From contig JAISFS010000089.1 of NCBI GenBank assembly GCA_031263485.1, positions 1-64,000 on the forward strand: 64,000 bases of DNA, in the 5' to 3' direction. The position numbers and the translations under genes are program-made. The stretch's first letter is position 1. Every line of letters starts with the position of its first letter. The stretch comes from Deltaproteobacteria bacterium. Lineage in GTDB: Bacteria; Desulfobacterota; Desulfarculia; Adiutricales; Adiutricaceae. The notes beneath the pieces were generated by a model. That model did not search any database, had not been told where the DNA came from, and worked only from the letters and a program-made list of their open reading frames with translations. This document shows, piece by piece, positions 50,141-64,000 of this stretch.

Positions 50141-50668
50141 ATGCCGGAACTAAAGATATCCTCCGCAGTCGCCGTGGCGAACTGGATGATCAAGAAGAAC
50201 CTAGAAGATCCCAGCGGCCTTACTCATCTGAAAATACAGAAACTGCTTTATTTCGCCCAAGGCTGGCATCTCGCCTATTTCTCGGAACCCCTGTTCAGCG
50301 ACTCCATAGAGGCATGGAAACACGGGCCGGTTGTGAAGTCCGTCTATCTTAAGCTGTCTCGCTTCAAGGACAACGTCATAACCGCTCTCATCACGGAGCC
50401 CGTCGCAACGGACGGGGGCTGGAAAAACGGAACGCCCGAAATACGTTTTCACAGCGAAGACACCAAATGGCTGTTAGAATCGGTTTGGGACAACGACTCC
50501 AAAACGGACGCGTGGAAACTTGTCGCCGCAAGCCACGCGAAGGGCGGGCCTTGGGAGCAGACGAAGGCTTTGGCCGGGGACGATGCCTGGGGGTACCCGA
50601 TAATATCGCTTGAGATGATGAAGGAATATTTTGAATCACAACTGAAATTGGCGAATATCGATGGCTAG
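50141..50668 (+). CDS. Panacea (DUF4065/SocA-like) domain protein, candidate antitoxin
   Basis: AVAVANWMIKKNLEDPSGLTHLKIQKLLYFAQGWHLAYFSEPLFSDSIEAWKHGPVVKSVYLKL, hallmark of Panacea/SocA proteins. Confidence 0.9.
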   Translation: MPELKISSAVAVANWMIKKNLEDPSGLTHLKIQKLLYFAQGWHLAYFSEPLFSDSIEAWKHGPVVKSVYLKLSRFKDNVITALITEPVATDGGWKNGTPEIRFHSEDTKWLLESVWDNDSKTDAWKLVAASHAKGGPWEQTKALAGDDAWGYPIISLEMMKEYFESQLKLANIDG

Positions 50669-51140
50669 CAAAAAAAAGAGGCATGGCCCGCCTCAGTCAG
50701 AAAATCTGGGCGGCAACGCGTCTGAGGGCGGTACCGGGCCGGAAACGTCCGAATTCGCGCTGGAATTGTCGTTGCCGATGGATCAATTTGCCAGGCAGTT
50801 TTTTCTCCAAAGAATCAAAGATCTGCAGAACGAAAAAAATGAGTTCAAGAAAGAGTTTCGAGAGGAAAGAGACGAGAACAAAAAGCTGATGATCAAAATG
50901 CAGGATTATGTGGCGATAAAAAGGCTTTATAAAAATCTGAAGTCCGAAAAATTCTGGAGCATCGGATTGATTGCCGCAGGAACTTTTCTTGCTTCAAGCG
51001 AAGGCATGTTCGGGGTTTTTCCTGTTCTTCCCGTGAAGTTTTTAGGGATTGGAATTGTCATAACGACAATAATAATAGGCATCAGATGGAAATTCAAATC
51101 TGACGAAAAATCAAAAGACAATGACAACCCCGAAAACTAA
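50661..51140 (+). CDS. Small coiled-coil protein with two C-terminal TM segments; candidate partner/toxin of the Panacea gene
   Basis: Start ATG overlaps the upstream stop by 8 nt; LQNEKNEFKKEFREERDENKKLMIKMQDY coiled coil; WSIGLIAAGTFLASSEGMFGVFPVLP and FLGIGIVITTIIIGIRW TM-like. Confidence 0.7.
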   Translation: MASKKKRHGPPQSENLGGNASEGGTGPETSEFALELSLPMDQFARQFFLQRIKDLQNEKNEFKKEFREERDENKKLMIKMQDYVAIKRLYKNLKSEKFWSIGLIAAGTFLASSEGMFGVFPVLPVKFLGIGIVITTIIIGIRWKFKSDEKSKDNDNPEN

Positions 51141-52607: not shown

Positions 52608-53639
52608 TTTGCCTCCTTTTACGCAGTGAGGTGTCCCGTGAGAGGGAACGGTCGTTTAAAGGCATGCCGTTCACGGGAGGGCAGGCCAAGCGGCTTCGGC
52701 GACTGCCATGTTTCTGGGGTGACCGGGTCGCCGTACCGACTGATTCAGTCATAGGTTAGGCGCCAACGTCAAGCCAGAGCTGCCCGTTCCGTAAACGAAC
52801 ACTGGAGAATATCGACGTCTACTTTTCTAAATGCATATAACATTATGAACATGATACCAATATTTTCAAGTCATAAAAGCTGTCCGGAGATTTTTGCCTT
52901 GATGTCTTGTGCAGGACGACAAACGATAATATCCACACTTTGAAATTAAATTTCAGGATAGTCTTATATTATATGGCAAAGCAAGATCATAATATTTTTG
53001 TAAGACAAGACAATGCTTCAACTTTTAATTGGTCAGCATACTCTACTAATCCGAATTATGAGGATAATGAGGATGATTAGGTCTTAAAGAGACTAACTGT
53101 CATGGAAAGATCTCATATTTTACTTATTGTATACATATTGCCGACGCATTGAATCATTTGCCTTCCGGAAAGGCATGCGAATAGTGGATTTTATCTTGGA
53201 CAGCTGTGGAGCCGACTCGAAAATTTCCGTCCGGAGGTCAACGGTTCTTTATGGGCTGATTCGTGCTGACGCGGAAATCAAACGTCAACAACGTAAGTTT
53301 GAAGAGCATAGTTCTTTGGAATTAACGATATCAACGACTTACACATCACCTTCTCCATCTCCGCCTGCCTTAAGTTGCAGACATTACACGGAAATCCTAA
53401 AACCACTCCTTCTGGATTCCTCCCCATCAGGAAAGTTAGCCGTTCGGGCGCCGCCTATATGCGGCGTGTATATTCGGCGAATATATGCGGATAGTCGGTT
53501 CAACTATCGCCGATAGGTTAGCGAAAATTATGCCGTGTTCATTTCCCTTATTCCGCCATCGCCCCCCCGTCCTCTTTCAGGCGACTCGCGCCTTCTCCGA
53601 CGGCGCGAGCCCCCGGTTCCTATCCCGACAACATCCCCC

Positions 53640-53785
53640 CTGCCCGAGCTACCCGGTAACCATCCACCCGACATCCAGCCAGCCCGCGCCCACTGTGATC
53701 ATCCCCCCGACTTCCCTCCAGCCCGTTTCCCCTGTTACCATCCCCCCGACATCCCTCCAGCCCGAACCGCCGGTTACCCACCCGC
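53640..53785. repeat. 39-bp tandem repeat, ~3.5 copies, upstream of the SPFH gene
   Basis: atccccccgacttccctccagcccgtttcccctgttacc / atccccccgacatccctccagcccgaaccgccggttacc. Confidence 0.85.
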
Positions 53786-53974
53786 CCGGGCCGCCGTCCC
53801 CCTCCCGACCGCCCCCGTCGGGGCATCCGCAGACGCTCCGCGGACTCTAAGGCCGCTCTGGAAGCGGCGTTCCGCACCCCCGTTCCTTGACTTGCCCCAG
53901 GCGATCTGATAATGATCCTTTATCAAAAAGGCTCCCGCGACGGAGCACCCGAGCCCGCCCGGTGGAGGAGATCA

Positions 53975-55285
53975 ATGGCGTTAATAGATCTCGTAAAGTA
54001 CAACGGCCCCAACAGCGTCTTCGCGTGGAAGTTCCCCAGCGAGGAGCTGAGCACCTGGACCCAGCTTATCGTGAACGAGTCCCAGGAGGCCGTGTTCTTC
54101 AAGGGCGGCAGGGCCCTGGACGTCTTCGGTCCGGGCAGGCATACCCTTGACACCGACAACATCCCGCTCCTCACGGCCCTCGTGAAGATCCCCTTCGGCG
54201 GGCAGTCGCCCTTCTCTGCCGAAGTGTGGTTCGTGAACAAGGCCCACTCCCTGGACATCAAGTGGGGCACCCCCGCGCCCATCCAGGTCCAGGACCCCAA
54301 GTTCGGCATCATGGTGCCGGTCAGGTCCTTCGGGCAGTTCGGGATCCAGGTGGAGAACTCCGCGAAGTTCCTGGTGAAGCTGGTGGGCACCACCAAGCAG
54401 TTCGACCAGGAGACCCTCACCCGGGTCTTCCGCGGCCTCTTCCTCACCAAGACCAAGGACACCCTGGCCCAGTACCTCGTGAAGAAGGGCATAAGCGTGC
54501 TCGAGATGAGCGCGTACCTGGACGAGCTCTCCTCGCACATCCAGGAGAAGACGGCCCCCTTTCTGGCCGACTACGGCATCAAGCTCCTCAACTTCTTCGT
54601 GAACGACGTCTCGGTGCCCGAGGACGACCCCGCGGTTCAGCAGCTGAAGACCGCGCTGGCCAAGAAGGCCGAGATGAACATCATAGGCTACGACTACACC
54701 CAGCAGCGCTCCTTCGACGTCCTGGAAGGCGCCGCCCGCAACCCCGGCGGGGCCGGGGCGGCGGTGATGGGCGCGGGCATCGGGCTGGGCATGGGCGCTG
54801 GCATGGGCGCGGCCTTCGGGCAACAGGCGGCGGGCGTGGCCGCGGGGGTCTCGGTGGCCCCGCCGGGCCAGCGCATCCAGTGCCCCGCCTGCCGCGCCGA
54901 GGCCCCGGCGGGAACGCGCTTCTGCCCCAACTGCGGCAAGCCGATGGGGGCCCAGCCGGGGGCCGCCCAGCCAAAGGCGGACATCCGCTGCAGCAAGTGC
55001 GGCACGCCCATGAGCGCGGACGCGCGCTTCTGTCCCAACTGCGGGGATCCCTACAACCCATGCCCCAAGTGCGGCCAGGATCTGATGAAAGGCGCGGCCT
55101 CCTGCCCATCCTGCGGCTACGTGCTCCCGGCGCCCTGCCCCAAGTGCGGCCAGCCGCTGGATCGGCCAGGGCTCAAGTTCTGCCCCTCCTGCGGCCAGAG
55201 CCTCGCGCCGTTGCCCTGCCCCAAATGCGGCACCGCGAACCAGCCCGGCGCAAAGTTCTGCCTGAACTGCGGCCAGCAGCTCTAG
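53975..55285 (+). CDS. SPFH/Band-7 domain protein with multiple C-terminal zinc ribbons (YdjI-like)
   Basis: NSVFAWKFPSEELSTWTQLIVNESQEAVFFKGGRALDVFGPGRHTLDTDNIPLL; FGQFGIQVENSAKFLVKLVG; CPKCGQPL/CPSCGQS/CPKCGT..FCLNCGQQL; start set at MALIDLVKYNG after GGAGGAG. Confidence 0.92.
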   Translation: MALIDLVKYNGPNSVFAWKFPSEELSTWTQLIVNESQEAVFFKGGRALDVFGPGRHTLDTDNIPLLTALVKIPFGGQSPFSAEVWFVNKAHSLDIKWGTPAPIQVQDPKFGIMVPVRSFGQFGIQVENSAKFLVKLVGTTKQFDQETLTRVFRGLFLTKTKDTLAQYLVKKGISVLEMSAYLDELSSHIQEKTAPFLADYGIKLLNFFVNDVSVPEDDPAVQQLKTALAKKAEMNIIGYDYTQQRSFDVLEGAARNPGGAGAAVMGAGIGLGMGAGMGAAFGQQAAGVAAGVSVAPPGQRIQCPACRAEAPAGTRFCPNCGKPMGAQPGAAQPKADIRCSKCGTPMSADARFCPNCGDPYNPCPKCGQDLMKGAASCPSCGYVLPAPCPKCGQPLDRPGLKFCPSCGQSLAPLPCPKCGTANQPGAKFCLNCGQQL

Positions 55286-55705
55286 CAGGCGGCGCAAGGC
55301 TCCGGGCGTCCACTCAGGCTTAGGCCCTGGGCGCACGCCAATCCAACGGCCCCGCCGGATCCCTCGTCTGCGGCCTTTCGCCCAAGGCAGGCGTCGCCCT
55401 CGCTCCTGCCCGGACCTCGTTGCCGCCCGGGCCTCGCCGCCGCCCGGGCCTCGCCGCCCGAGCTTCCATCGGTCAAGGAAGCCTGCGGTTTACGGCCTCG
55501 GCATGACTTTCCGGCCCGGGCAGCCTCCCGGCTCCCCGGCCGTTCCCATCGGGCCCCGCAAGCCTTCCCGGTCGCCGGAACCTCGCCCGCGGCCGGCAAG
55601 CCTTCCGCCGACCGTTTACCGCCCGGCCCGGGAAGACTCAGCCCCCGGTCCGGGAGGCGTCCGCCCACCCCTTGACGCGCCCCTTCGCAGGGTGGAAAGA
55701 GTCCC

Positions 55706-56560
55706 ATGAACCCCGTCACGCGCTACAAGTCCGTCATAATCGCCTGGCTGGTCTTCAACGTCGCGGCCTTCATCCTGTTCGCCGTGATGATAGGCGAAAA
55801 TCTCACTTTCGTGAAGTTTGCCGCCTTCTTCGCGATGCTCGCCGCTGGCGCCGTGGCGGCCGCGTCCCTCATCCTCTCCGCCTCCCCGTTCCAGGGGAGC
55901 AGGCCCGCGCCGCTCCTGGCCGGCACCGCGGGGGTGGCGGCGATTGTCTACGTGCCGGTCGCGTCGGCGGTCTCGCTCGTCTTCATGACCGGCGCCGCCT
56001 CGGGCCTCCTGGCCCTGATCCTCCTTCACCTCTCGCTCGCGGCAGTCTTTATCGCCGCGTCGGCGGGCATCTACTTGGCCGCCAAGCGCAAGGCCGCTTC
56101 GGACGCGGCGGTTGAGCGCCGCGCGGCCGGCGCCTTCAGCCTCCTCTCCCGGGCCGAGTCGATCATGAGCCGCCTGCCTCAGGGCTCACCTGAAGCAAGG
56201 TCGCTGGAGAGATCCGTCGAGGAGATACGCTACTTCGACAAGAACTCCTCGGTGCCTGCCGACCGCGAGATCGCCGAAAGGCTCATGGACCTTGCCGAGA
56301 TAATCGATCCCCGACCGGCTGCCGCGCCTGCGCCCTCCTCCCCGCCCTCCCTCTCCCCCGAGGACTCGGCGCTCGCTTCCCTGGAGGCAGCGGTCTCCGG
56401 CGGCGCCCCGCCCCCCGCGGAGGCCCCCCGGGCCCCGGTCGCGTCGGCGGCCGACCCTGCGGCCCGGATGGCCAACACATCCGAGCTCCTGGAGGAGCTC
56501 TACCGCCTGACCCTCCGCAGGAAGGACGAGAGCCTGAACTCCAAGAGGGGATCGCTCTAG
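55706..56560 (+). CDS. Membrane protein of unknown function (TM N-terminus, cytosolic Ala/Pro-rich C-terminus)
   Basis: SVIIAWLVFNVAAFILFAVMIG...GLLALILLHLSLAAVFIAASAGIYLAAK; no recognised family. Confidence 0.6.
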   Translation: MNPVTRYKSVIIAWLVFNVAAFILFAVMIGENLTFVKFAAFFAMLAAGAVAAASLILSASPFQGSRPAPLLAGTAGVAAIVYVPVASAVSLVFMTGAASGLLALILLHLSLAAVFIAASAGIYLAAKRKAASDAAVERRAAGAFSLLSRAESIMSRLPQGSPEARSLERSVEEIRYFDKNSSVPADREIAERLMDLAEIIDPRPAAAPAPSSPPSLSPEDSALASLEAAVSGGAPPPAEAPRAPVASAADPAARMANTSELLEELYRLTLRRKDESLNSKRGSL

Positions 56561-56727
56561 CCCGTTTCCTTCAAGCCGCTCGCGGGGCCCTTGCCGGCGC
56601 GCCCTGGCGGAATCGCGTGCGGGAAACGGCGGACCGGTCGCCCCTTAAGGAAATCAAGGCCTCCACACGATTCTAATGGACCTCAAGCCGGCCGGGAGCC
56701 TCCCGCCGCCGCTCCCGAGGATGCCCA

Positions 56728-57201
56728 ATGCCTGATTCTGCCCCCCACGAAAGCCCTGACCGCGCCCGGGACGGCGAAGCCCTTTCCCTGGACGCTTGGC
56801 TCAAGGGCAACATCAGGAAGGGGGTCCTGCCATTCGCCATCTCCGCGGCCGCCCTCCTCTCGCTCGCCGCGGTGGTGATCCTGAAATCCCCCTCACACGT
56901 CCCCGCATCGGAGTCCGTCAAGGCGTTCGTGAAGTCCCTGGCGCACTACCCGGACATCTACTGCGTCGCGGCGGCGCTCCTTTACGGATTCCTGTTCAGG
57001 AGATCGCTTCTCAAGGCCGCGCGCGGCCCCCTCAAGCCCTCCCGGCTCCCGAACCATCATTCGGGCGCGTCCGGTGACCGGGACGCGCCCAGGTCGCGAC
57101 GCGTTTCCCGCACGGGCTTCGAAATGCAGCTCCTGACGATACTGACGCTCGTCACCTGCTGGTGGATTTACAGGCTCATCATTTATGCGATGCTCCGTTA
57201 G
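56728..57201 (+). CDS. Small membrane protein of unknown function
   Basis: VLPFAISAAALLSLAAVVIL, YPDIYCVAAALLYGFLF, MQLLTILTLVTCWWIYRLIIY; same strand and cluster. Confidence 0.55.
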   Translation: MPDSAPHESPDRARDGEALSLDAWLKGNIRKGVLPFAISAAALLSLAAVVILKSPSHVPASESVKAFVKSLAHYPDIYCVAAALLYGFLFRRSLLKAARGPLKPSRLPNHHSGASGDRDAPRSRRVSRTGFEMQLLTILTLVTCWWIYRLIIYAMLR

Positions 57202-58003
57202 CCCTCGCCGGAGGAGCCAACGGAGGGCCGGAGCGGCGCGGCGGACACGCAAGCCGTCGCGCTGGAATCCGATCGGTTTCTTGCTGTCCGTTAGCCCGCC
57301 CGACATCGCCGCTCATGCGGCCTGCCGGCGACGTTGGTCCCGTAGTCAACCGAACTCGCCGCAGCCGCGACCGGCCTATGAAACCGCCCCGCTCGCCTAA
57401 GCGCCCGATGCCCTGATCCTTCCCGCCCGAAAGCGGCCCCGAGCCTCCCGGCGACGGGCTTCGCCAGGGTCCCCCGGTCCCGCCGCTTCCGCTCCGCAAG
57501 CCGCGCTTGGCCTGCCTGCCGGTCGGACGGCCCTGGCCGTGACACTGGACTTGTCCCTGGTCACGGGACGGCACGCGCCTCGGGGCGCGGGGCCTGTCGC
57601 GGCTCCGGTCTGGTCCCGAAACGGGCATCGCGCCGAGTCTTACACTTCAGGAGGCAAGTTGACAAGCGGACGGGCGGGATCTACTATTATCTTGACCCTT
57701 GCCGCGCAAGGCACGGGACAAGACTGGCGTCCGCCGGCGACCCGCGCCCAGTTCGCCCAGTTCGCCCGGGCCGCTCGGACCTCGGGCCGCTCGGACCCCG
57801 GGCCGCTCATGCCGCACCCTCGGCGGCTCGGGCCTCGGGCTCCGTTGCGCCACATGGCCTGACGCGTCCTTCCGCCCGCAACGCTCCGGGGATCCACCCC
57901 CCTAACGCCCCGGCCCGTCCCCCGCCCTTTCCGTTCCCGATGCCCCGCCCGCCGCGTCCGTCCCTTCCGCGCCGCGCGCCGCGCCGGCAGCCAGGAAGGA
58001 CCC

Positions 58004-59275
58004 ATGGCCCAAGACTCCCAGATCAACTGCCCCTCCTGCGGCGGCTTCATCGACGTGATTCCGGGGCAGTCCAAGTACACATGCCCGTGGTGCGGGAACG
58101 AGGTGGACCTCTTCAAGCTGGCCCGCCCGACCGCGCCCGGCGCGGCTCCCGGGCCGGACGACTTCAAGCTCATCGTGCCCTTCAAGGCGGACGAGAACGC
58201 CCTGCACTCGTTCGTGCTGCACAAGGCAATCGAGAACGACTTCGCGCCGGACGACATCCTTTCCGCCGGCAACGTCGAGTCCAAGGAGCTCGTCTACCTG
58301 CCATTCTGGGAGGCCGACGGCAATTCCGAAATAGACTGGACGGCCTCCTTCGGCTACGACCGCCAGGAGGCCTACACCGCCTACGAGACGTACCAGCGCA
58401 ACGGCCGGAACTACACGCGGCCCGTCACCCGCTACCGCACGGTGACGGACTGGCGGCCCGCCTCCGGCAAGGCCAGGGCGTCCTTCACGGCCCGCGCCTA
58501 CGCTGGCGCGGACGGTGCGCCCCAGAACGTTGCCGAGATGCTGGAGACCGGGCTGACTGGGGTCAGGGCCGTGCCCTTCGCCGCGGCCTACGTGACAGGC
58601 TACTCGATGGAGCCGTTCTCGAAGGCCGCTGGGGACGTGCGGGGCCGGATGGACACCCAGGCCTACGCGGCCGAGGATGCCGAGGTGCGCCGCCACGCCC
58701 AGGGGGACCGCCAGCGCGACTGGCGTCACTCGGCGTCAAGGAGCTACGGGGAGGCCCGGCGCTGCGCGCTCCCGCTGGCCAAGGCGGTCTTCTCATACGG
58801 CGGCAACAACTACAAGATCTTCGCGGACGGGGCGACGATGAGTCTGGTCCAGACCGACCAGTTCCCCCGCGACACCAAGCGCAAGGGCAGGATCTCCCGG
58901 GGCTTCGTGCCCTTCTGGCTCTCCCTCGTCGCCGCGGTCGCCTGCGCGGCACTCCAGGGCATAGACTACGTCCAGCCCATACCTGTCGTCTGCGGCCTCG
59001 CGGCCCCGCTCCTGTATGGCTTCCTCCGCAAGAGCTCCATCCTTGGCTCCTCCAGGAAATTCCGGCAGGCCACGCTGGCCCAGAAGCGCCTGGACGAGTA
59101 CCAGCAGCTCGGGAACCTCTCCTACGAGGAGGTCGAGAAGCTCAGGGGCCAGGCCGTAATCCCACCCCAGGGGCTTTTGGCCCGCACCGGCGGGGACATA
59201 ATCCTCCTGCCGCTCCTTACCGTCATCTGTTCCGCGGCGGTCGCCTTCGGCTTCAACCTTTTCGTCCTGTCTTGA
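58004..59275 (+). CDS. TFIIB-type zinc-ribbon membrane protein (YdjG-like)
   Basis: INCPSCGGFIDVIPGQSKYTCPWCGNEVDLF; DDFKLIVPFKADENALHSFVLHKAIENDFAPDDI; ELVYLPFWEADGNSEIDWTASFGYDR; C-terminal TM segments. Confidence 0.85.
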   Translation: MAQDSQINCPSCGGFIDVIPGQSKYTCPWCGNEVDLFKLARPTAPGAAPGPDDFKLIVPFKADENALHSFVLHKAIENDFAPDDILSAGNVESKELVYLPFWEADGNSEIDWTASFGYDRQEAYTAYETYQRNGRNYTRPVTRYRTVTDWRPASGKARASFTARAYAGADGAPQNVAEMLETGLTGVRAVPFAAAYVTGYSMEPFSKAAGDVRGRMDTQAYAAEDAEVRRHAQGDRQRDWRHSASRSYGEARRCALPLAKAVFSYGGNNYKIFADGATMSLVQTDQFPRDTKRKGRISRGFVPFWLSLVAAVACAALQGIDYVQPIPVVCGLAAPLLYGFLRKSSILGSSRKFRQATLAQKRLDEYQQLGNLSYEEVEKLRGQAVIPPQGLLARTGGDIILLPLLTVICSAAVAFGFNLFVLS

Positions 59276-59477
59276 GGCAGGGACCGCAGGTCGCGAATCC
59301 TGAGCAACGAACGGCAAGGGGCGCACTTGGGCGATGCCCGACCGCGACCGGACAGGGACCGCCACGGAAGGCTGTCTGAAGGAACGGTCGCCGGACCGGA
59401 CGAGGTTCCGACAGGAGTCGGACTCGGTTGCCGGACCGAACAGTTGCCGGACCGGATAGCTTCCGGACTCGATCGCA

Positions 59478-59575
59478 GGGCAGGACCCGGTCGCAGGACA
59501 GGACAGCGACCGGACAGGGCAGGACCGGGTCGCAGGACAGGACGGCGACCGGACAGGGACAGGACCCGGTTGCCG
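59478..59575. repeat. 39-bp tandem repeat, ~2.5 copies, upstream of the ATPase-like gene
   Basis: gggcaggacccggtcgcaggacaggacagcgaccggaca / gggcaggaccgggtcgcaggacaggacggcgaccggaca / gggacaggacccgg. Confidence 0.9.
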
Positions 59576-59648
59576 AAGGACGATCGGCCGAGCCGGGGAA
59601 GTTCCGGAAGCGGCGGCCCGGACGCGGGCCTTTCGAGACGGAGGTTTC

Positions 59649-61247
59649 ATGGCTAACGACACTCAAGGCAACGCCCAGATAGCGGCAGGCGCCAAAGGCG
59701 GGCCCAGGAGCTTCGCCGCCTGCGGACCGGCCGACCCCTCGCTCCATTTCGTCGTCCCGGCGGACAGGCGCCTCCCCGACGTCCTTGCCGCCTTGGAGGA
59801 GGGCACGGTCTACGCCGTGGCCCCCAGGAGGATGTCCGGGAGGACCACGCATCTCATGTCGATGGCCTCGGCCCTGAACCGCAGGGGCAGGATTCTCGCG
59901 CTCCACGTGCCTTTGGAGGCGACCGCCGGCGCGGAGGACCACGAGGCCTTCCGGAAGCTATTCTGCGCGAGGCTCCGCGAGGCGCTCTCCGAGTCCCCCG
60001 AGGCGGCGTTGAGGTCTGCCTCCCTCGACAACGGCACCGCTGACCCCCGGCTGTTCCTGAAGCCCGCACTCTCCAGCCTCTGCGCATCCCTGGACAGGCC
60101 GCTCGCGCTCTTCCTGGACGACATGGAGACCCTCCCCAGCTACGTCCTCCTGTCCCTCCTTCACCAGTTCAGGGACGCGTGGTCGGTCAGGTCCTCCCTC
60201 CCCTTCCCGAAATCCTTCGTCCTGTGCGGCGCCCCCGCCGCCCGCGAGCTCGCGCCCTCGCCCGAGGCCGGGCTCTCCGGTCCCCGCCCCCCGGTGAGCC
60301 TGCCCGCCCTGCCCCTGGAGTTCCCCCCCTTCACCGCCGAGGAGACCAGGCTCCTTCTTGAAGAGCACACGCGGGAGGGCGGCAGGGCGTACTCGGCGGA
60401 AGCCCTCGCGGAGGCCATGTACTGGTCGGAGGGGGTCCCCGCCGCGGTCTCGCAACTCGCGTGGACCGTGGAGGAGGACGTTCTGCGCGGGGACCCTTCC
60501 CAGGAGGCGGACGGCGCGGACTTCGACCAGGCGGCGGCGCTCGTCATCGAAAGGCGCGAGGCCGGGCTGGACGTGGCGCTCCGCGCGCTCTCGGAGGCCG
60601 GGATAGCCTCGGCCTTCGAGGCGCTCGTCCTGGGCGACCCCGGCCTCCCGGCGGAGACGGGGGAGGAGCAGCTGAGGCTCGCGGCCGAGGCCGGGCTCAT
60701 CAAGATGAAGGACGGCGAATGCGCCCCCGCGAACCCCCTCGTGAGGGACGCGGCCGTAAACGAGATTTCCGGGCGGCTGGCCTTCGGCATGCCCCGCTCG
60801 GTGGAACGCAAGCTCGCTGAGGGCAGGGAGCTGGACATGTCCGCCGTATTGAAGGGTTTCCAGGCGTACTGGCAGGAGAAGGGCTCGCGCCTCGCGCCGC
60901 CATTCGGCATGAAAAGGGCGCTGGGCCACCTGGCCCTGATGGCCTTCCTCCAGAAGGTCTTGGGCGCCGAAGGGGGGCTCCTCCGCGAGTACGGGCTGGG
61001 CCGCGGCCGACTGGACATGCTCGCGCGTTTCAGGGGCACGGTCTATCCGGTCGGCGCGGTCGTGAAGGAGTCCGAGGCGCTCCTGCGCGAAAGCCTGATC
61101 CAGATGTCGCGTTACGTGGAGCGCTGCCGCGCCAAGACAGGCTGGCTCGTCGCCTTCGACCCGGACCCCATGGAGGGCTGGGAGAGGAAGCTTTACTGGC
61201 GCGCCGACAAGCAGGATAGCCGTACGGTGCATGTGATAGGCGCCTGA
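59649..61247 (+). CDS. AAA-like P-loop ATPase with C-terminal PD-(D/E)XK-like region
   Basis: YAVAPRRMSGRTTHLMSMASALNRRGRILALHVPLE; LALFLDDMETLP; FTAEETRLLLEEHTREGGRAYSAEALAEAMYWSEGVPAAVSQLAW; C-terminal GRLDMLARFRGTVYPVGAVVK..QMSRYVERCRAKTGWLVAFD. Confidence 0.7.
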   Translation: MANDTQGNAQIAAGAKGGPRSFAACGPADPSLHFVVPADRRLPDVLAALEEGTVYAVAPRRMSGRTTHLMSMASALNRRGRILALHVPLEATAGAEDHEAFRKLFCARLREALSESPEAALRSASLDNGTADPRLFLKPALSSLCASLDRPLALFLDDMETLPSYVLLSLLHQFRDAWSVRSSLPFPKSFVLCGAPAARELAPSPEAGLSGPRPPVSLPALPLEFPPFTAEETRLLLEEHTREGGRAYSAEALAEAMYWSEGVPAAVSQLAWTVEEDVLRGDPSQEADGADFDQAAALVIERREAGLDVALRALSEAGIASAFEALVLGDPGLPAETGEEQLRLAAEAGLIKMKDGECAPANPLVRDAAVNEISGRLAFGMPRSVERKLAEGRELDMSAVLKGFQAYWQEKGSRLAPPFGMKRALGHLALMAFLQKVLGAEGGLLREYGLGRGRLDMLARFRGTVYPVGAVVKESEALLRESLIQMSRYVERCRAKTGWLVAFDPDPMEGWERKLYWRADKQDSRTVHVIGA

Positions 61248-63545: not shown

Positions 63546-63597
63546 CCTCCAAAGCCGAAAGCCATCCGACTGTATGCCGGAGGAAGAGGGAGGATGC

Positions 63598-63720
63598 CAG
63601 AGGATGCGGAGGGATCCGGGGAGGATGCGGAGGGATCCGGGGAGGATGCGGAGGGATCCGGGGAGGATGCGGAGGGATCCGGGGAGGATGCGGAGGGATC
63701 CAGGGAGATCCAGGGTGGAT
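63598..63720. repeat. 21-bp minisatellite (aggatgcggagggatccgggg, ~5 copies) grading into related repeats to ~63910
   Basis: Directly visible; followed by gagatccagggtggat and ggatgcacgaggctggaaaggagccgaa units. Confidence 0.95.
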
Positions 63721-64000
63721 TGGGGGAGATCCTGGGTGGATGAGGGGAGATCCAGGGTGGAAGCGGGGGACGCTGGAGGATGCGGGGGGATGCAGGAGGA
63801 TGCGGGGGGATGCAGGAGGATACACGAAGCTGGAAGGTGCCGAAGGATGCACGAGGCTGGAAAGGAGCCGAAGGATTCACGAGGCTGGAAAGGAGCCGAA
63901 GGATGCCGGAACTCCTTGATGCTTCAATGTCTACAGGAAGAGGTTTCCGAGGAAAAAAAAACCTTGCAACTCCATACGTTGGATTCGGGAGCTTCAGGAT

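Follow-up and report, generated by a model that had tools for sequence, protein, structure and literature searches.

A Conserved SPFH, Zinc-Ribbon, and Membrane-Protein Cassette without PspA in a Desulfarculia Genome and in Distantly Related Bacteria

Introduction

In Bacillus subtilis, the SPFH protein YdjI is soluble, its recruitment to the membrane requires both YdjG and YdjH, and YdjI in turn recruits PspA (PMC8581546). YdjG is described as combining two zinc ribbons with a YpeB/NTF2-like domain and a transmembrane (TM) segment (PMC11237479), and associations of Band-7/zinc-ribbon proteins with PspA are described in two studies of PSP partners, the same paper and PMC9239133. Zinc-ribbon SPFH proteins are common, and so far they have been explained mainly via PspA. 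Here we analyze a five-gene locus (genes A to E, positions 53975-61247) in a window of 64,000 nucleotides from contig JAISFS010000089.1 of a Deltaproteobacteria bacterium (GCA_031263485.1; family Adiutricaceae), which encodes a zinc-ribbon SPFH protein together with membrane proteins. The source genome consists of 6.5 Mb in 337 contigs, and its closest relatives are metagenome-assembled genomes labeled "Deltaproteobacteria," which we take from their isolate codes to be of termite-gut origin. A sequence-only reading of the window had compared the locus with ydjFGHI and suggested that an ATPase and two orphan membrane proteins stand in for PspA and the TPM protein, in a system for membrane integrity or defense.

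Results

Conservation of the A-B-D Cassette

Judging from sequence comparison, genes A, B, and D are a conserved unit, an undescribed membrane-protein cassette that keeps the same order in distantly related bacteria. An earlier description of such a PspA-free cassette was not found in the open-licence literature searched, including the available portions of PMC11237479 and PMC9239133. All five open reading frames (ORFs) lie consecutively on the plus strand, as the sequence-only reading had it, and each shows coding-type G+C periodicity. Among 40 relatives, D was found in 20 genomes and B in 19, with strong A matches in the same genomes of the family. All three genes are present together in 19 family genomes and missing together from five (G007, G010, G017, G018, and G022), except that A has a marginal match in G017 confined to the zinc ribbons; in genome G008, A stands at a contig edge without B and D. 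The A-B-D order is kept in the family genomes, many of which have short gaps (37 and 6 bp in G006; in G009, which has A-B-D-E, 17, 55, and 81 bp), and in relatives the gaps can shrink to 6-60 bp. This tight spacing, which is a property of the relatives only and not of the source genome, points to an operon.

The D profile, run against 84,980 species genomes, yielded 44 loci, those outside the family including Pseudogulbenkiania, Oxalobacter, Paraburkholderia, Gallionella, Massilia, Sulfurospirillum, and a Chlorobi bin. Sixteen of the non-family loci had enough upstream sequence to be evaluated, and in 12 of these by manual count (Betaproteobacteria, Sulfurospirillum, Chlorobi, and others) A is followed by a protein of ~230-290 aa in the B slot and then by D; all the groups just named show this order. 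A profile comparison identifies the B-slot protein of the distant cassettes as a homologue of B (hhalign probability 96%, P 3e-9, 211 columns). For A, B, and D, the pairwise distances are correlated with each other at r 0.85-0.94, values that are not corrected for species phylogeny. The sequence-only reading had named neighbors not conserved together in related genomes as the observation that would speak against a common system; because of the co-occurrence and the repeated A-B-D order in distant loci, the neighbors A, B, and D are clearly conserved together.

Related SPFH genes also occur with other partners. Plasmids of Bacteroides and Butyrivibrio carry an SPFH gene with genes for a B-like protein and another type of zinc-ribbon protein after it, and on Burkholderia arboris pla_1 (locus L141) the gene behind a related SPFH gene encodes a zinc-ribbon DUF4178 protein, which is another partner set. 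A plasmid search with a Paraburkholderia D protein found little, and a further weak D homologue (L109) does not show the A-B-D arrangement. Downstream of the cassette, genes for a TetR regulator, an HlyD-type adaptor, and an MFS pump are present at five loci (L052, L053, L054, L056, and L057); in the source genome such genes lie at about 69119-73287 of contig C226, about 8 kb from the cassette.

The Proteins A, B, and D

Gene A (53975-55285, plus strand, 436 aa) encodes a soluble SPFH protein with a Gly/Ala-rich linker. Its reading frame is open from 53912, and the orthologues align from the ATG at 53975. The SPFH assignment is clear (Band_7_1 of Pfam, E 3e-51, 174.5 bits against a cut-off of 24). 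A contains ten CxxC knuckles whose 20 cysteines are all invariant across 16 orthologues, which gives five zinc ribbons rather than the six or so first estimated. A has the YdjI-type combination of an SPFH/Band_7_1 domain with C-terminal zinc ribbons, and no TM segment was detected in it, whereas B and D both have such segments.

Gene B (55706-56560, plus strand, 284 aa) encodes a four-TM protein with a cytosolic helical domain. It has four hydrophobic helices, a cytosolic helical part, an EEIRYFDKNS motif, and a basic C-terminus, and 18 members of its family were aligned. Searches of B against Pfam and NCBIfam gave nothing above the cut-off. Its predicted structure has a mean predicted local distance difference test (pLDDT) score of 90.6, and a comparison of this model with solved structures returned no significant fold, the weak matches listed being helical-bundle noise. 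In a B-profile search of the wider phylum, in which few candidates per genome were scored at first look, B was found in its own family only, apart from two marginal matches.

Gene D (58004-59275, plus strand, 423 aa) encodes a protein that starts with a zinc ribbon, continues with an alpha/beta domain containing a beta-hairpin, and ends in TM helices; both the zinc ribbon and the helices noted at first reading were confirmed. The zinc-binding cysteines and the WTASFG, TDWRP, and GDxQ motifs are invariant or nearly so among 32 homologues. The hairpin within the alpha/beta domain is very long, at ~75 residues (strands 90-132 and 135-166), in a predicted structure with a mean pLDDT of 90.3. D had no match above the cut-off in Pfam or NCBIfam, and its model had no significant fold match in the PDB, where the weak listed matches are long-hairpin noise. 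Many species carry C-terminal extensions on D, with TPR repeats in Paraburkholderia and Pseudogulbenkiania (the two tested); these additions suggest further docking.

PspA and TPM Partners

The sequence-only reading had stated that the PspA and TPM partners are missing, and this was borne out at the level of the genome. No match to PspA/IM30 (PF04012) was found in the six genomes of the genus (G000-G005), and no match to TPM (PF04536, the YdjH domain) in these six genomes or in Sulfurospirillum diekertiae, while the controls were positive in both searches (B. subtilis and Escherichia coli for PF04012). The six genomes are 74-86% complete, so that PspA is very unlikely to be missing from all of them by chance. 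PF04012 was also undetected in six of the seven genomes reached via distant loci, including S. diekertiae, which is a complete chromosome record; the seventh, Paraburkholderia L091, has PspA. Within the family, pspA lies on another contig in seven genomes that have the cassette or part of it (G009, G013, G014, G015, G020, G024, and G008, the last with A only). G010 and G017 have PspA and no cassette, and the presence of PspA in the family does not go with that of the cassette. Since both PspA and TPM are undetected in the six genus genomes and S. diekertiae, the locus is not a ydjFGHI operon with a merely local loss of pspA, and we reject for the genus the possibility that a copy resides elsewhere, none having been found in its six genomes.

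ORF C and Gene E

ORF C (56728-57201, plus strand, 157 aa) belongs to no recognized family, as the sequence-only reading had said of C and B alike, and it keeps a coding-type base composition. It does not represent a family of its own, however, since it resembles the membrane domain of D, with which it aligns over D residues 275-408 (BLASTP E 3e-5 for the pair, 26% identity). Its score in the D profile is 7.4 bits against 6.0 for the best shuffled control, barely above these controls, and the homology is therefore probable rather than certain. In genome G003, a second, decaying copy of D, which has lost zinc-ligand cysteines, is located between B and D, in the same slot as C; no significant direct match was found between the two, so that the shared slot is the sole link of C to this second D. 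C has no clear counterpart in 39 relatives, where one weak, stop-containing match was found. Judging from this moderate evidence, C is probably a truncated D-like membrane domain that has survived from a second copy of D. We considered C as a conserved membrane protein in its own right and rejected this, in view of its likeness to D and the single weak, interrupted match elsewhere.

Gene E (59649-61247, plus strand, 532 aa) encodes a degenerate AAA-type ATPase with a degenerate PD-(D/E)XK-like tail, a lineage-specific accessory. The family membership proposed at first reading holds, whereas the P-loop is degenerate (SGRTT) and the E-x-K motif is absent. The family is large, with 56 matches in the source genome and dozens in relatives; a further member of this expansion lies, for example, at 73996-75225 of contig C226. 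Among 22 sampled paralogues, the motifs are mostly intact (SGKTT, FDEAD, and YPVELKIK). In contrast, E and its four complete orthologues in the genus have SGRTT at Walker A, LDD(M/L)E at Walker B, and PVGAV (GAVVK) at the E-x-K site, so that the Walker-A lysine, the Walker-B glutamate, and E-x-K are lost in all five complete genus copies. The set of motifs that marks an active AAA/PD-(D/E)XK ATPase-nuclease (GK[S/T], hhhhDE, and D...E-x-K) is not carried by E. The G009 copy, which is located beside D, keeps the Walker lysine and lacks E-x-K; it groups with the genus copies at a support of 99/96 on a long branch, which calls for caution with this grouping. E is restricted to one genus and a single further genome, and most cassettes have no E. 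The ratio of non-synonymous to synonymous substitution rates (omega, dN/dS) is 0.26-0.39 for E, similar to the 0.30-0.43 of D, values that are only rough because they come from the Nei-Gojobori method in a high-GC genome. Loss of the catalytic motifs together with purifying selection makes E a probable pseudoenzyme, and, judging from these sequences, it is probably maintained by selection outside the conserved core. Since every one of the five complete copies in the genus has lost these motifs, we rejected E as an active effector.

The proposal that PspA and TPM are replaced by the ATPase together with two orphan membrane proteins was mostly wrong, as C looks like what is left of a D copy and E is lineage-restricted and probably dead; B is the sole conserved new membrane partner among the proposed substitutes.

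Elsewhere in the window, a SocA/Panacea antitoxin-like gene overlaps a small coiled-coil/TM ORF at 50141-51140. With G+C contents of 0.53 and 0.43, far below the neighborhood, these two are a candidate for a recently acquired toxin-antitoxin pair.

Discussion

A Proposed Membrane-Anchored SPFH Scaffold

We consider it rather probable, by analogy with the B. subtilis system, that A-B-D is a membrane-anchored SPFH scaffold for envelope integrity that works without PspA, with E recruited to it and C as a remnant. We infer for these proteins a physical complex, recruitment to the membrane, and a role in envelope stress. In such a three-part membrane complex, soluble A would oligomerize as a scaffold beneath the inner membrane, four-TM B and D would hold it there as dedicated integral anchors, and the zinc ribbons of A and D would serve as docking surfaces. 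The complex would organize or protect the membrane under envelope stress, comparable to YdjG/YdjH/YdjI, without a PspA effector or TPM protein. The anatomical counterpart of A would be YdjI and that of D the YdjG-like zinc-ribbon membrane protein, while B would replace YdjH, and where PspA is absent the likely working unit in membrane organization under stress would be the SPFH scaffold together with B and D. E may be a lineage-specific pseudoenzyme that was added to the operon and acts as a subunit for binding or regulation, and C may be a non-essential leftover of a duplicated D. The YdjI/YdjG comparison and the membrane-integrity role of the sequence-only reading thus hold as an analogy, built on an SPFH/zinc-ribbon protein genetically tied to two integral membrane proteins.

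Several observations weigh against this scaffold reading. In the source genome, the genes A-E are spread across 7.3 kb with gaps of up to 802 bp (A-B, 420; B-C, 167; C-D, 802; and D-E, 373 bp), and a promoter-like site lies 5' of D. Sigma-70-like candidates were in fact found at 53887-53916 (plus strand), 5' of A, and at 57659-57687 (plus strand), between C and D, both by consensus scan only. The wide gaps are partly accounted for by intergenic tandem repeats, and short G+C-rich repeats of this kind (periods 16-39 bp and 20-63 bp) lie at 53606-53778, 59429-59570, and 63589-63906. Because of these gaps and the promoter-like site before D, two transcripts are possible in the source species, where D-E may be a second transcription unit. 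Among the 16 testable distant loci, one (L102) has A-D without B, and three (L094, L095, and L108) have no A despite enough upstream sequence. Finally, the envelope-stress role is an analogy, since SPFH proteins have other roles such as protease regulation.

As an alternative, A-B-D would be a scaffold for the assembly or quality control of some other membrane machine, such as an efflux pump or a respiratory complex, acting like a chaperone as HflKC does for FtsH. The TetR-HlyD-MFS genes that follow the cassette in several genomes of the family would fit a pump as client, and the extensions of D, with TPR repeats in Paraburkholderia and Pseudogulbenkiania, are typical of protein docking; in genera g10/g11 and beyond the family, however, the cassette does not have the efflux block as a conserved neighbor, and no protease or client is consistently linked, which leaves this explanation rather unlikely. 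It is quite unlikely that the locus is a split ydjFGHI system, in which A-B-D recruits in trans a PspA/IM30 encoded elsewhere in the genome. The seven family genomes with pspA on another contig and the cassette or part of it agree with such recruitment, as does Paraburkholderia L091, but PspA is undetected in the six genus genomes and in most of the sampled distant-locus genomes, and G010 and G017 carry it without the cassette, so that as a general rule the idea is already largely refuted.

An anti-phage or conflict system, in which the SPFH complex senses phage membrane damage and E acts, or once acted, as effector nuclease, appears very unlikely to us. The ATPase/PD-(D/E)XK-like architecture of E occurs in conflict systems and the cassette is distributed patchily across phyla; against this, most cassettes have no E, the catalytic motifs of E are lost, A-E had no PADLOC match at E 0.01, no defense neighbors were noticed, and the cassette has a stable position in the family, often beside the TetR-HlyD-MFS block and not in a defense island. 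The defense role raised by the sequence-only reading accordingly finds no support.

Returning to the PspA-free scaffold, we can extend it only tentatively to a self-contained and widespread membrane-protection machine that might do the PspA/ESCRT-III-linked job of SPFH proteins without an ESCRT-III protein, and that in one termite-gut lineage might have gained a dead ATPase/nuclease-like regulatory subunit. The cassette is present in at least four phyla and persists where PspA is undetected, and it therefore offers a clean test of the SPFH scaffold's own role, for which Sulfurospirillum and Paraburkholderia are cultivable hosts.

Comparison with Known Systems

FloT-YuaF (flotillin/NfeD) and HflKC-FtsH are SPFH scaffolds encoded with an integral membrane partner, as in the cassette. 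The partner families are different, however, no NfeD or FtsH gene is located at the cassette, and flotillins bind the membrane on their own, unlike the proposed partner-held A. E shares its full-length architecture with AAA_35/AAA_22/PDDEXK_9-like proteins, including dozens of same-genome paralogues at ~30% identity, and differs from these AAA ATPase/PD-(D/E)XK-like proteins in having no Walker-A lysine, Walker-B glutamate, or E-x-K and in its location in a conserved operon.

In Alphaproteobacteria (Paracoccus and Pseudorhodobacter), an SPFH gene is directly followed by a double-zinc-ribbon membrane protein of the D family (D profile, E 6e-40), a pair which sits, for example in Paracoccus, after a TelA toxic-anion-resistance gene. 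Unlike the cassette, this pair has no B gene, the D homologue has two zinc ribbons, and the SPFH protein has none. D, a candidate homologue of YdjG, has the layout of zinc ribbon, domain, and TM helices, and it is also linked to these double-zinc-ribbon homologues. In comparison with the published description of YdjG (PMC11237479), D differs in carrying a single zinc ribbon, a domain with a long beta-hairpin, and a larger number of TM segments.

The cassette differs from ydjFGHI in that PspA is not encoded in or near it and is undetected in many host genomes, in that it has no TPM protein, in that B belongs to a different four-TM family, and in that the gene order starts with the SPFH gene. 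Like B. subtilis pspA-ydjGHI (ydjFGHI), it combines a zinc-ribbon SPFH protein with two membrane proteins, one of which bears a zinc ribbon (PMC8581546; PMC11237479), and A, like YdjI, is a soluble protein without a TM segment beside two integral membrane partners.

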